From IMG/VR virus record IMGVR_UViG_3300037502_001423, positions 1 through 23,271 of that record: DNA of 23,271 nt. One strand, 5' to 3'. The notes under the pieces were generated by a model. That model did no database searches and had not been told where the DNA came from. It was given only the letters and a program-made list of their open reading frames with translations. How positions within the stretch are numbered: position 1 is the stretch's first letter; the number at the start of each line of letters is the position of its first letter. Of this stretch, positions 9,977 through 23,271 are shown piece after piece. Both the position numbers and the translations under genes were made by a program. Source of the stretch: a virus.

Positions 9977-11014
9977 TTAGTCACTAGAACCCTTAATAAA
10001 TACCTCTAATGGGTCATATGGTTTACTGTTTTGTTCTAGGATTTTGACTTCGCTTGGCTCAAACACAACAAAATTGCTTGTGCCTTTGCCTGATTTACGA
10101 CTACCTTCATCCAAATAGCGTATGCCTTTTACTCCAATTTCATTAAGCATTTTGGAAGCCTTTTCTTGGCTATTGGTTACATCAATTAACCAATCGTATA
10201 AACCTTTGCCTGTATTTCCATACATTTCTGCATTAGTTATCCAGTTTTCAGGCAATTTATTTAAAACTTCTTTAGATTGTTTAGACAATGATTTATCCCA
10301 ATCCAACATATTAGGGATGTGTTCATCAGGTATATCTACTTTGTACAAGTTTCCAGCATTAAATAAGTTAGGTTCTTCTTTTAACAAGGCCTTCTTAAAA
10401 GCATCTGAGCCTTCTTGGTTTATAACCCTAACAAAATTGTTGTAATTACCAGTTCCATCAATAAATGCTTGTATTTCCCTTTTAACTGCGTTTTTTTCTT
10501 TATTAGCAAATTTTTCTAAAGTTGCAAACTGTATCTTTTCAGATGCCACATTGGGGTCTACAGAAAGCATATGTCTATATCCCTCGGCAACTTTAGGGTT
10601 TTCAGCAAAATACATTCCGTGTCCAAAAGCCTGTGAGCCTTCACCAGACCCTACTTTGTTTATGTCAAATTTACCTCTAATAGTGTGAGGTGTGCCGTGA
10701 TAAGCAACCGCGCCCATAAGTCCTGGTATTTGATCCAATAATCGATTTAATGCTATTTTATCGCCTATTTCTATGCCTTTATCGCCCATTACCAGAGCTT
10801 TATTTAGGTCAGAAATCTGTGTTTGTAGGTTTTGTTGCGCAGATTGTCCTACGCCTTTTGCATAATCAATTAATTGTTGATTGGTAAATGCCTTTGTTTG
10901 TGGCGGTGTATAACCTTGGATTGTGCTGGCAAGGGTGCTAATTGGCTGTTTATTGCCAATCATACCAACCATTGATGGTCTTTGATTTTTAAACAAATCA
11001 GCTAATCTAGGCAT
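9977..11014 (-). CDS. ADP-ribosyltransferase-like protein (ART-PolyVal type)
   Basis: This 345-residue protein has a short linker-like N-terminus (1-100) followed by an ART-like domain. YHGTPH (105-110) is the H-containing first strand. GSGEGSQAFGHGMYFAE (122-138) is the typical glycine-rich plus GHGxYFAE block. LYKVDIPDE (223-231), GIRYLD (297-302) and NFVVFEPSEVKIL (314-326) match the closing strands seen in phage polyvalent-type ARTs. It would use NAD+ to modify a protein, either injected host-takeover style or made in the cell. Here it is free-standing and ends the leftward early operon. Its start overlaps the preceding stop as TAATG. Catalytic activity is inferred from motifs. Confidence 0.75.
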   Translation of the reverse strand: MPRLADLFKNQRPSMVGMIGNKQPISTLASTIQGYTPPQTKAFTNQQLIDYAKGVGQSAQQNLQTQISDLNKALVMGDKGIEIGDKIALNRLLDQIPGLMGAVAYHGTPHTIRGKFDINKVGSGEGSQAFGHGMYFAENPKVAEGYRHMLSVDPNVASEKIQFATLEKFANKEKNAVKREIQAFIDGTGNYNNFVRVINQEGSDAFKKALLKEEPNLFNAGNLYKVDIPDEHIPNMLDWDKSLSKQSKEVLNKLPENWITNAEMYGNTGKGLYDWLIDVTNSQEKASKMLNEIGVKGIRYLDEGSRKSGKGTSNFVVFEPSEVKILEQNSKPYDPLEVFIKGSSD

Positions 11015-12869: not shown

Positions 12870-13229
12870 CTATAAAACCTTTACTTTTACCATACCGCCC
12901 CTTTGCTGGCTAAATTTGTAGGTGCAATTAATTCGTTTGTCGTTAATGTTCCAGGCATCAGCAAGACCATCCTGCCCCGCCTTAAACGCTGCAATCATAT
13001 TGTCTTGGTCTCTGGGCCGGTTATCTGGCGCGTAAAACTCAATTTCCAAAAATATTGGGCCTTCTTCTGGTATCGGCAGCGGGTGCTGCAGCGCTAGAAT
13101 GCGGACCGCAAACCGGTATTTTTTCTTGGCAGCTGCCTGCGGAGCCCAATGCCCACGGTAATTCGGGCTCAATTCTTTGGGCGGCCAAGGCAAACTAAGC
13201 CTATCGGAGGAGTTTTTCAATTGTGTCAT
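12870..13229 (-). CDS. rusA: Holliday-junction resolvase, RusA family
   Basis: This 119-residue protein has RusA hallmarks. LPWPPKELSPNYRGHW forms the N-terminal strand. DNRPRDQDNMIAAFKAGQDGL (69-89) carries the catalytic-site Asp cluster, followed by ADAWNINDKRI (90-100) with another conserved Asp. Length agrees with RusA (about 120). It cuts four-way junctions during phage recombination or before packaging. It complements the ERF/YqaJ/SSB set on the right arm. The ATG at 13229 overlaps the upstream HNH gene by 29 bp and has no strong ribosome site; an internal TTG at 13220 is possible. Confidence 0.88.
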   Translation of the reverse strand: MTQLKNSSDRLSLPWPPKELSPNYRGHWAPQAAAKKKYRFAVRILALQHPLPIPEEGPIFLEIEFYAPDNRPRDQDNMIAAFKAGQDGLADAWNINDKRINCTYKFSQQRGGMVKVKVL

Positions 13230-13458
13230 TAAGTACGCTTAATTCAGTTTTTTTTAAAACATTCCAGATAGACTTGCGGCCATGAATGCCGTTGTGGCTG
13301 CCCTGGTGGCAATCCTTGCAAAGCGGAATACAGAGGTATTGCAGGCCTTGCTCGATATGGTGGGCATCACTAGGGCCAGCCTCATTACAAACGCCACAGG
13401 GCATGGTTTTAACGGTTGCTAGGTAGCGCCTTTGGGCCGCGGTCAGTTTGTTATTCAT
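13201..13458 (-). CDS. HNH nuclease-like protein (Ref-like)
   Basis: This 85-residue protein shows CGVC (21-24), DAHHIEQG (31-38), IPLCKDCHQG (44-53) and NGIHG (56-60). This is a zinc-knuckled HNH (beta-beta-alpha-metal) site with His33/His34 and a late His. The pattern AHHI...IPLCxxCHxGxxNGIHG resembles P1 Ref and related recombination-associated nucleases. It would nick or cut DNA during recombination, and its neighbours RusA and the methyltransferase support DNA processing. Its ATG lies inside the last codons of the methyltransferase. Confidence 0.78.
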   Translation of the reverse strand: MNNKLTAAQRRYLATVKTMPCGVCNEAGPSDAHHIEQGLQYLCIPLCKDCHQGSHNGIHGRKSIWNVLKKTELSVLNDTIEKLLR

Positions 13459-14275
13459 GTTGGCTCAAAATTTTCCATGCGGTTGCTGCACAAAGTGGGA
13501 CTTGTCCGTTTCCAATGGCTTTAAGTCTGTCCACTCTAGCGGCCACCCCATCAGCCACTCTGTCCAAGTTGGGTTCAGTTTTCCACCATTGTGCAGACCC
13601 GATACTTGTTCTCCAAGATTCCCCTTGCCTCTGTCCCTCAACGCGTGTCTTGAATCTTGCGCTTTTGGCGTTCCCCAAGTTTTTCTGCCGACTATTGTTT
13701 CCAAGTTTGGATTGCGTTTTTCGTTCCACGCTGATTCTGGAGTTATCGTTGCTGCCATTGCCGAACAACTCCTTGGCGTTGGCCATTTTTCCGACAATCC
13801 ATATTCTGTCTCGTCTATGGTTTGCACCAATGTTGGCAGCTGATATAACTCCCCACCTACTGTCATACCCCATTGCGGTAAGGTCTGCAAGGACTCGTTC
13901 AAGTCCTCTAGTAACGAGCATTGGACTGTTCTCCACAAATGCGTATTTTGGTCGAACCTCGCTAATAATCCGTGCCATTTCTCGCCACATTCCTGATCGT
14001 TCTCCGTCAAGGCCATCTCCTTTTCCTGCAACTGAAATGTCTTGGCATGGAAATCCGCCCGAAACAACATCAACAATTCCTCTCCACGGCTTTCCGTCAA
14101 AGGTTTGAACATCATCCCAAATCGGGAAAGACGGGAGAAGTCCGTCATTTTGTCGGGCGAGCAATACGCTTGCTGGGTATGGTTCCCACTCAACTGCGCA
14201 GACGGTTCTCCATCCGAGCAAATGTCCCCCAAGTATTCCTCCACCAGCGCCTGCGAAAAGAGCCAACTCATTCAT
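13451..14275 (-). CDS. dcm: DNA (cytosine-5) methyltransferase
   Basis: This 274-residue protein has the C5-methyltransferase motif order. Motif I is LFAGAGGGILGG (6-17). Motif IV is GGFPCQDIS (73-81), with nucleophile Cys77. Motif VI is VENSPML (114-120), motif VIII is RRDRIWIVG (154-162) and motif X is VDRLKAIGNGQVP (248-260). The target-recognition part (about 165-235) is short, so the recognised sequence is probably short and cannot be predicted. It would protect phage DNA from host restriction; no partner nuclease is encoded here. Its ATG overlaps the preceding TGA (ATGA), with AAAGG upstream. A second 268-codon frame is nested in it (next entry). Confidence 0.93.
   Translation of the reverse strand: MNELALFAGAGGGILGGHLLGWRTVCAVEWEPYPASVLLARQNDGLLPSFPIWDDVQTFDGKPWRGIVDVVSGGFPCQDISVAGKGDGLDGERSGMWREMARIISEVRPKYAFVENSPMLVTRGLERVLADLTAMGYDSRWGVISAANIGANHRRDRIWIVGKMANAKELFGNGSNDNSRISVERKTQSKLGNNSRQKNLGNAKSARFKTRVEGQRQGESWRTSIGSAQWWKTEPNLDRVADGVAARVDRLKAIGNGQVPLCAATAWKILSQHE
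13465..14271 (-). CDS. Overprinted ORF in the +1 frame of the methyltransferase
   Basis: A second ATG only 4 bases after the methyltransferase ATG opens the +1 frame for 268 codons, ending 14 bp before the methyltransferase stop. The product begins MSWLFSQALVEEYLGDICSD and ends near LNPTWTEWLMGWPLEWTDLK. I recall phage hypothetical proteins with this SWLFSQALVEEY start and WVEWLMGWPxGWTDLKP end; this is from memory and unchecked. A frame of this length in DNA of about 45% G+C is unlikely by chance. One ribosome site (AAAGG) could serve both ATGs. It is either a true overlapping gene or a by-product of constrained methyltransferase codons; several other frames here are also unusually open. Confidence 0.5.
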   Translation of the reverse strand: MSWLFSQALVEEYLGDICSDGEPSAQLSGNHTQQAYCSPDKMTDFSRLSRFGMMFKPLTESRGEELLMLFRADFHAKTFQLQEKEMALTENDQECGEKWHGLLARFDQNTHLWRTVQCSLLEDLNESLQTLPQWGMTVGGELYQLPTLVQTIDETEYGLSEKWPTPRSCSAMAATITPESAWNEKRNPNLETIVGRKTWGTPKAQDSRHALRDRGKGNLGEQVSGLHNGGKLNPTWTEWLMGWPLEWTDLKPLETDKSHFVQQPHGKF

Positions 14276-14652
14276 GCTGCCTTTACCGATGCGCGTAATA
14301 CCGCAGCTTTGAATAAATACGGTTGATCAAACTGGCTTTCCAGAATGCCCAACTCTTTGCCCTTGGCCACAATGCCAGGCCATGTTTCGTGCCATTCCTT
14401 CCCGTCAACCACGCCGGGCAGGCTGACTTTTAACTCATCGGACCAGCGCTCACCACGCAACCAGGTTCCTGGGTAGCATATGAACTGGCCATCATTCTTA
14501 CGCCATTGGTCCGAGCGCATCTGCTGCCGGATGGCATCCAATAGTTCTGGCAGCGGTGGCCGGATTCCCTCAGTCTGTTTCCAGGCCTTACGGGCATCTC
14601 CCTTAGCAACACGGCGCGGGTAAACCTTCCAAAATTCTTCAAAGTCTGTCAT
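14272..14652 (-). CDS. Replication-region protein, FWxxYP type
   Basis: This 126-residue protein begins MTDFEEFWKVYPRRVAKGDARKAW and contains DGQFICYPGTWLRGERWSDE. The FWxxYPxxxxKxxAxxAW plus FixxPxTWLxxxRW signature is common in phage replication-initiation and helicase-loader-region proteins, often as a C-terminal domain of lambda O-like proteins. It is free-standing here, without an obvious winged-helix DNA-binding part. ATG at 14652 is preceded by GGTGGA; the longer TTG start at 14679 is rejected. It overlaps the methyltransferase start (ATGA). A link to the palindrome array at 15516-15593 is inference. Confidence 0.65.
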   Translation of the reverse strand: MTDFEEFWKVYPRRVAKGDARKAWKQTEGIRPPLPELLDAIRQQMRSDQWRKNDGQFICYPGTWLRGERWSDELKVSLPGVVDGKEWHETWPGIVAKGKELGILESQFDQPYLFKAAVLRASVKAA

Positions 14653-14752
14653 TTTTAGTCCACCAAAGAATAACGCCAACCAATATGGCCACGATCAAAA
14701 TAAACCAAGTAAATTCAAAAAATATTTGAGATTGAATAGAATAAGGAATCAT
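14639..14752 (-). CDS. Micro membrane protein, 37 residues
   Basis: This 37-residue ORF starts at ATG 14752, overlapping the preceding TGA as ATGA, and runs 14 bp into the next gene. It encodes a polar start (MIPYSIQSQ), a single strong membrane segment (FTWFILIVAILVGVILWW) and a charged tail (TKNDRL). The coupling and hydrophobic pattern support a real gene that fills a gap otherwise left between 14749 and 14652. Function unknown. Confidence 0.55.
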   Translation of the reverse strand: MIPYSIQSQIFFEFTWFILIVAILVGVILWWTKNDRL

Positions 14753-21714: not shown

Positions 21715-23271
21715 TTATTGTCCTTTACCAACATCTTTAAGAGGAACCATCTTTTTCTGGGCGCGTTTTAATGCAGATTTTTCTGCCATCGCCACACCTT
21801 TTTTTGCACCATACATACCGCCAACCGTTGCGCCAACTCCAGCGCCTGGCACGCCACCAAGCGCACCACCTACAGCACCACCCATAGAGGTTCCCAAAGT
21901 TCCTAAAAGCGGGGCCGCGCCCAATCGAATTAGGTTGTGGGCTTGTATTGCTGCGCCAGGATAAGATGCATCGTATTTAACAAGGTGTCCAGCATCGTGC
22001 AAATCTTTAACCATCTGCGCAATTTCCTTGTCTTCCATCAAAACGCCTAGTTTACGGTTGTTGTCGTTAAGGTATTTTGTTATGGCAGCTGCATTCCATT
22101 GGCCTTTATTTTTAGAGCCCTCTTGCAATATACGGTTTGCAAACTGCGCCCTAATTTCTGCAATTGCAGCATCTGCTTGGGGCCTTACTTCTTCTGGCAT
22201 TTCTTTAAGCAGCTTGATTAAATGCCGTTGCTGATCTACATCCATCCGCTCAACAGTCGATGCAATTTTTTCAAACGGCACGGCGCGGTTCATAGGTGAC
22301 TGTGGATCGTAATCCATAATCTTGGCCACACCTTTTGGATCGTCTAGTAAACGAGCAATCTTGGTGCGAATATCCCTGGCTTTTTTGTAAACATCTTGTC
22401 CGGCCACGCTAGTAACATCGTTATCAATTCTGTCTTTTAAACGGCCAATAATTCCAGACCGCTCATTATTCCAGTTGGAATTAATGTATTTGCGTAAATT
22501 TTCTGCCTGTTCTACCGTCATTGGCTTTACTTTGCCGTTTGCGTCTAGCAAATCATTTTCTCTTAAATGCGACTCTATACCACGGCGCAAGGACATAAAA
22601 CTGTCGTTTACCGTAAAGTTGGAATCTGTATCTAAGAATTTCTGTATGTTGCTTGGCACCACCGCCGGTTGATTACCAGCAACTTGTTTGGCGCTTTCAT
22701 ATGCTTGGTTCATCTGGGTTTGCAGCGCAGTTTTAAAGTCATCAAACGGGCGCGCAATCCGTGTGCCACGGTCATATAAAGCAGTTTCATCAAGCCCTAA
22801 AGTTCCGCCGGTGCGCTCAACAATCCGTTGACCAAAGTTTTCTAATGTGGCTCGCTCGTTAGCCAATGTGTCCCTGTAAAGCTGTCCTACTGGCGCGTCT
22901 ACTTTGCTGGTCTGGAACTCATTAGCAGCTGCAAATCCATCGCCTAAAATTGATGATTCACGAGCGTTTTCTAAACCAACACGGGACAAAATTTGTTTGC
23001 GCTGCTCTTGTTCTGCCAAGTTTACTTTGCCTTTGGGCGCGTATTTAACCTCTGGAAATGGCTGCGTATTGGTTGGCGCAGGCATTGTTGGAGTTTGAAT
23101 TTTTGGTGCGGGCGGTAATGTGCCAGTTGGCGCACCTTTTTTAGCCTGTAATTGGGCTTGAAACTCCGCATAAGTTACTTTTGGTTTGCCAACAGTTGGC
23201 TCAACTCTTGGAGTCTCTGGTAATTTTGGCTCGGCAGTTCCTAGGGCGGTTTCTACCTTTTCAGCAGTTTT
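21715..23271 (-). CDS. Injection-type internal virion protein, 5' end outside window
   Basis: 519 codons are open from the stop at 21715 to the right edge, so the N-terminus is missing. The internal ATG at 23085 is probably not the start, because the frame stays open through a Pro/Lys-rich linker upstream. The body is long and helical. The part DDPKGVAKIMDYDPQSPMN, then LKEMPEEVRPQADAAIAEI, resembles large phage virion or ejection proteins. The C-terminus has a glycine zipper (GTSMGGAVGGALGGVPGAG and onward) followed by a Lys-rich end, suited to membrane insertion during DNA entry. It adjoins a tail fibre. The role as a DNA-ejection protein is inferred. Confidence 0.75.
   Translation of the reverse strand, partial: KTAEKVETALGTAEPKLPETPRVEPTVGKPKVTYAEFQAQLQAKKGAPTGTLPPAPKIQTPTMPAPTNTQPFPEVKYAPKGKVNLAEQEQRKQILSRVGLENARESSILGDGFAAANEFQTSKVDAPVGQLYRDTLANERATLENFGQRIVERTGGTLGLDETALYDRGTRIARPFDDFKTALQTQMNQAYESAKQVAGNQPAVVPSNIQKFLDTDSNFTVNDSFMSLRRGIESHLRENDLLDANGKVKPMTVEQAENLRKYINSNWNNERSGIIGRLKDRIDNDVTSVAGQDVYKKARDIRTKIARLLDDPKGVAKIMDYDPQSPMNRAVPFEKIASTVERMDVDQQRHLIKLLKEMPEEVRPQADAAIAEIRAQFANRILQEGSKNKGQWNAAAITKYLNDNNRKLGVLMEDKEIAQMVKDLHDAGHLVKYDASYPGAAIQAHNLIRLGAAPLLGTLGTSMGGAVGGALGGVPGAGVGATVGGMYGAKKGVAMAEKSALKRAQKKMVPLKDVGKGQ

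Follow-up and report, generated by a model that had tools for sequence, protein, structure and literature searches.

Two overprinted reading frames of a tailed-phage locus as putative subunits of a heterodimeric C5-cytosine DNA methyltransferase

Introduction

C5-cytosine DNA methyltransferases made of two polypeptides are already known, as in M.EcoHK31I and M.AquI, and the variable region and motif IX of M.HhaI and M.HaeIII belong to the small domain (PMC3404938). M.EcoHK31I (YGGCCR) has motifs I-VIII and X on its large subunit and motif IX on its small subunit, both of which are needed, whereas M.AquI (CYCGRG) has motifs I-VIII on one chain and the recognition region with motifs IX and X on the other. 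The β subunit of M.EcoHK31I is also read from an alternative frame that overlaps α. The multispecific C5 methyltransferases of Bacillus phages (SPR, phi3T, rho11s) carry tandem exchangeable recognition modules of ~38-40 aa in their variable region. In Streptococcus phage MM1 1998, orf13 and orf14 are annotated as 'C5 methyltransferase alpha subunit / beta subunit' (GenBank DQ113772). A search of the literature on overlapping C5 methyltransferase genes gave secondary mentions only.

Herein, we analysed a stretch of 23,271 nt from a viral record (IMGVR_UViG_3300037502_001423, positions 1 to 23,271), referred to below as the window, in which two long frames of the same strand cover one methyltransferase locus. 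We propose, with a probability of about 0.84, that this locus encodes a heterodimeric C5-cytosine DNA methyltransferase with two overprinted subunits, of which the second, β, would supply the small domain.

Results

Both frames were found on the minus strand where an earlier note made from the sequence had placed them (all window coordinates given here are on the minus strand). The first, α (13451..14275), is a C5-cytosine DNA methyltransferase ORF of 274 aa with an ATG start, and the second, β (13465..14271), is a +1-frame ORF over α of 268 aa, also with an ATG start. The two starts are 4 nt apart and the two stops 14 nt apart, and the overlap is almost end to end. The neighbours of this pair encode portal, terminase, major head protein, ERF, SSB and a RusA-type resolvase, which marks the window as a tailed-phage contig. 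Three other ORFs of the window are recorded as side observations: a small HNH/DUF968-like ORF immediately downstream of the methyltransferase locus (13201-13458), a possible polyvalent-protein-type ADP-ribosyltransferase within the region of phage structural genes (9977-11014; PF18760, below the cut-off), and a 456-aa ORF beside a tail-fibre gene (21715-23085) for which PHROGs and Pfam gave no match.

The gene upstream of the pair is of a replication type (14272..14679; phrog_9327/270). Its TGA overlaps the ATG of α, and the ATG of β follows that of α by 4 nt (ATGAATGA); the overlap of the TGA with the α start suggests translational coupling of α and β. In 160 of 182 loci an upstream ORF ended at or near the start codon of α or β, the commonest offsets being +1 (75 loci) and +5 (69 loci). 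Both subunits could plausibly be made by termination-reinitiation in which either of the two starts is chosen.

The openness of the β frame was assessed in the single sequence and in its relatives. When the synonymous codons of α were shuffled (20,000 trials), ~5 stops were expected in the +1 frame over α, and a +1 ORF as long as β survived in 0.3% of the shuffles; the earlier estimate that chance would yield such a frame a few times per million was too strong. The antisense strand, which had been described as unusually open, is not exceptional either, since its frames are ordinary for the base composition of the locus (p 0.19-0.45). Across 66 loci, 70 stops were observed in the β frame versus 423 expected, and most of the 70 were genuine terminal stops. 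It is the comparative evidence, not the single sequence, that puts the overlap far beyond chance.

A constraint check on aligned homologous loci, which the earlier note had proposed, was run on 66 loci by counting single differences, classed by their effect in both frames, in pairs >80% identical. The ω of β was 0.123 as dNN/dNS (bootstrap 0.077-0.179) and 0.335 as dSN/dSS, and that of α was 0.07-0.20, while the +2 control frame gave 2.7 (dNN/dNS) and 0.67 (dSN/dSS) and was unconstrained. Nonsynonymous change is reduced in the β frame, and purifying selection acts on both frames. The two frames do not share it evenly along the gene: the N-terminal half showed constraint on both, and in the region of β residues 159-225 the ω of β was 0.03-0.10 versus 0.5-1.6 for α, so that β is the constrained frame there and α a free linker. 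The earlier note had also considered that conservation of the methyltransferase frame could force the other frame. This was not supported by the permutation controls, in which the β score of every homologue lay above all synonymous permutations of that homologue's own α (z 3.9-15.6), showing that α conservation does not explain β, and by the variable region, which constrains β and not α. That the +1 frame is open merely through base composition or α conservation, with β never made, might still be argued from the ~0.3% of synonymous shuffles in which a single sequence stays open and from the antisense frames, which are also fairly open; the deficit of stops in the 66 loci, a β ω of 0.12 beside an unconstrained +2 control and the stronger constraint on β in the module region leave this reading barely credible. 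A chance β frame lying over a complete enzyme was likewise considered as a candidate and was ruled out by the selection tests.

The α frame matched PF00145 with an E value of 7e-33, over residues 4-213 only. It has motifs I, IV (PCQ), VI (EN) and VIII in order and a large-domain fold, as a C5-cytosine DNA methyltransferase should; hhalign found motifs I-VIII and X and did not find motif IX. The earlier description of α as containing all C5 motifs does not hold on either count. Motif IV with the catalytic PCQ corresponds to α residues 73-81, GGFPCQDIS (14033..14059), of which GGFPCQ is invariant in alignment A2. Motif X corresponds to residues 250-260, RLKAIGNGQVP (13496..13528), which hhalign aligned to canonical motif X and which aligns with the C-terminal end of M.HhaI. 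Among 264 α frames paired with a β, motif X was kept on α in 229, and a regular expression for the motif IX core found it in none (0/264). This expression is narrow enough to miss the canonical ECARLQGFP spacing; the rows for loci with no β are therefore not a valid control, and the absence of motif IX from α also rests on hhalign and the AlphaFold model.

In that model the large domain had pLDDT values mostly >90; residues 1 to ~172 were of high confidence, residues ~179-252 were mostly disordered, and the motif X helix was ordered again. The variable hydrophilic linker, α residues 166-238 (13562..13780), is the other frame of the β modules described below and combines a pLDDT mostly of 40-55 with an α ω of 0.5-1.6. 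Superposition of the model on M.HhaI and M.HaeIII covered 181-208 residues (Z 20-22). As modelled, α is an M.HhaI-type large domain without the small, DNA-recognising domain; the recognition domain and motif IX that a single-chain C5 methyltransferase has on the same chain were not found on it. The large subunit of M.EcoHK31I, by contrast, also has a predicted recognition domain, and its small subunit has only motif IX (PMC3404938), whereas the window α has no folded recognition domain.

The search of the β protein against phage proteins that the earlier note had called for returned phrog_1008 (E 7e-26, best stretch 59-220), and no relatives of β by sequence were found in Pfam, NCBIfam, PADLOC or the PDB. 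AlphaFold on β alone (100 homologues) gave a model of low confidence, with a pLDDT of 58, a pTM of 0.26 and no PDB match. Residues 1-158 of β form a conserved framework (13798..14271; alignment A1), the second half of which is homologous to the β frameworks of three distant loci, L254 (Verrucomicrobiales), L278 (virus) and L286 (Virus Rctr41k), with a hhalign probability of 95.9% and hmmsearch scores of up to 36 bits.

Near its C-terminus, β contains a motif-IX-like segment, residues 230-249 GKLNPTWTEWLMGWPLEWTD (13525..13584), which aligned without gaps to RRLTPVECERLQGFPKNWTL. In the set with 264 paired α frames, the motif IX core was present near the C-terminus of 244 β frames. A full β profile was not significant against canonical methyltransferases, since 140/200 shuffles scored as high; a profile of the tail only, for which 0/200 shuffles reached both score and location, is suggestive of motif IX. 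Weak alone, the match is strengthened by three groups of relatives. The α frames of L153 (Spirochaetia), L156 (Paraburkholderia) and L209 (virus) reach no further than motif VIII or a short distance past it, and their β frames carry motif X behind the motif-IX-like segment, which is the canonical IX-X order. In L254 and L278, a textbook motif IX lies in the +1 ORF and motif X is kept on α; the β of L254 matches PF00145 positions 175-297 above the cut-off (E 5.6e-5), with RRMLPSEYERLQGFPKNWT, and the window β profile matches the L278 and L254 betas at 26-33 bits. Intermediate motif-IX-like sequences also occur, such as RLTAKFCEMMMGVPSSWTEL in L232. The EcoHK31I-type partition, with I-VIII and X on the large chain and IX on the small chain, is recovered here by sequence and colinearity, the profile statistic for motif IX being weak on its own.

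Between the framework and motif IX, nearly all parsed β frames carry 1-6 segments ("WPTP" modules) that start with [WF]PTP or a similar sequence and have a median length of 36 aa. A census of 215 β frames gave 433 modules in 95 clusters. Identical module types were found at different positions and on frameworks down to 24% identical, and 43 module pairs were >=75% identical on frameworks <50% identical. The window β carries two modules, both proposed as target-recognition cassettes: module 1, residues 163-198 (WPTPRSCSAM...GRKT; 13678..13785), delimited by module segmentation and by sharing between distant frameworks, and module 2, residues 199-231 (WGTPKAQDSRHALRDRG...GGK; 13579..13677), delimited by module segmentation and belonging to the largest cluster, with 108 members. 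A variable number of exchangeable modules of ~40 aa is the hallmark of the multispecific methyltransferases, and the modules share size, tandem layout and exchange with those of the SPR, phi3T and rho11s enzymes, which however are single-chain, whereas the β modules belong to a second subunit read from an overlapping frame. On this comparison the modules appear to be swappable target-recognition cassettes of the α/β family, each of which would read one DNA sequence.

Relatives of the locus were sought with β in searches that do not require α. A tblastn search returned 50 phage and 5 plasmid records, and scans returned at least 550 viral-contig relatives and 147 from contigs of bacterial and archaeal genomes. 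The +1 overlap was present in 87/87 of the first loci fetched, in 139 of 143 further loci in its standard form, and in 12/12 distant phage or plasmid loci; distant relatives with the overlap came from phages or plasmids of Synechococcus, Microcystis, Porphyromonas, Microbacterium, Lacticaseibacillus, Stenotrophomonas, Vibrio, Mycobacterium and Bacteroides. The four exceptions were the three split variants with motif X on β and L148. All 259 β-bearing loci, from phages, plasmids and many bacterial phyla, had an α ORF, and β without α was found in none of them. Stops in the +1 frame of most close relatives, which the earlier note had named as evidence against a second gene, were not seen: the frame is open in all relatives except the lineage of L049 and L050 and the crossed-over L148. 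L049 (3430-3432) and L050 have a single premature TAG at β codon 144, with the rest of β and the whole of α intact; these two look like one virus from two samples.

In L148 (2886-3984, a Gallionella MAG), the N-terminus of α and the C-terminus of β are found in two ORFs and the reverse combination in one; the frames are crossed over in this frameshifted or recombined copy. A programmed frameshift, which would join α and β in one chain instead of making separate subunits, could be suspected from this natural mixture of frames and from the near-complete overlap with its fixed +1 relation. However, β can start from a conserved ATG of its own, 4 nt past the α start, with no shift needed, and motif X, in the α frame near the end of β, would require a second shift; a programmed frameshift is thus highly improbable.

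A further type of relative is represented by L285 (1275-2579, Streptococcus phage Javan599) and L286 (1287-2489), in which a complete-looking methyltransferase with its own motif IX is overlapped in +1 by a short β without motif IX; β frames of this type are matched by >500 plasmid records, mostly Escherichia. Because a complete-looking α is paired there with a short β lacking motif IX, the β framework may have a further role besides carrying modules. These Streptococcus-type relatives, with the full motif set in α, also favour the view that β is a real overprinted protein that inhibits, chaperones or regulates a methyltransferase complete in α. In the window family, however, α has neither motif IX nor a folded small domain, β has a motif-IX-like end, with motif X added in three loci, and the recombining modules on β are of recognition-cassette size, and we regard such a role for β as unlikely.

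Among the records seen, most annotate one frame only. Vibrio phage ZQ26 has α annotated; its relative 1.291.O and Pseudomonas phage phPA-G have β, entered as a hypothetical protein. Of the related Vibrio phages L240 (OP918135) and L288 (MG592659), one has α annotated and the other β. In Paenibacillus phages Diva (gene 50, 'g49 internal gene') and Jacopo (gp57), a β-type ORF is annotated inside the methyltransferase gene and is not described as half of a split enzyme.

Discussion

Given the features of the two frames, the likeliest role of β is that of target-recognition subunit in a split enzyme. The catalytic large domain, with SAM binding, the PCQ and EN motifs and motif VIII, would be supplied by α, which would also contribute motif X via its long disordered linker. 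From the +1 frame of the same mRNA, β would supply the small domain, consisting of the framework, 1-6 target-recognition modules and motif IX, its initiation 4 nt after that of α plausibly resulting from termination-reinitiation from the upstream gene. Neither α alone nor β alone would be active, and the two would assemble physically. Together they would methylate the DNA of the phage, with each module probably accounting for one methylated sequence if modules correspond to targets, and the methylated phage DNA would escape restriction, which is the presumed anti-restriction benefit. Weighing against this reading are the poor model of β alone, the non-significant full β profile, the Streptococcus-type relatives, and the stop within β in L049 and L050.

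The overprinted partner that the earlier note had imagined as an inhibitor or a specificity helper of the methyltransferase is genuine and under its own purifying selection, and 'specificity helper' pointed in the right direction; the expectation that it would be new was not sustained, given M.EcoHK31I, M.AquI and DQ113772. The arrangement is of a known but under-annotated kind. Compared by published description (PMC3404938), the window has the same motif partition as M.EcoHK31I, and β differs from the small subunit of that enzyme in spanning nearly the whole gene and in carrying module arrays. The split of M.AquI resembles that of L153, L156 and L209, whereas motif X of the window stays on α and the genes here all overlap. 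The MM1 1998 β, reached by homology from the L278 β, is nested in +1 of a C5 methyltransferase like that of the window, which shares its frame offset and, via L278 and L286, its framework homology; it is however short (141 codons) inside a longer α (385 codons), whereas the window β spans nearly all of α, and the match covers the framework part only, with no module array seen in it. Judging from the sequences, the locus and its relatives extend beyond the precedents found in their near-complete overlap, in an α with no recognition domain, in the recombining modules of the overprinted subunit and in their distribution across phyla.

It seems fairly probable that modular methyltransferases of this type form a large family spread across phyla, to which the locus belongs. 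In this family the cassette-bearing specificity subunit would be permanently overprinted on the catalytic subunit, each exchange of a cassette would also rewrite a tolerated disordered linker of the other subunit, and the overlap would ensure that both halves are passed on jointly as one mobile unit. Gene callers usually keep one frame, sometimes α and sometimes β in related phages, and through such single-frame calling the half of this common phage enzyme that sets specificity would be mostly absent from annotations or listed as hypothetical. If the proposed division of labour is true, phage methylation motifs would not be predictable from α alone, and the β modules should predict them. The locus is a long same-strand overlap whose conservation is very wide and whose predicted products are clearly linked in function. 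It also allows the evolution of overprinted genes to be tested directly, because the two frames divide the constraint between them along the gene.
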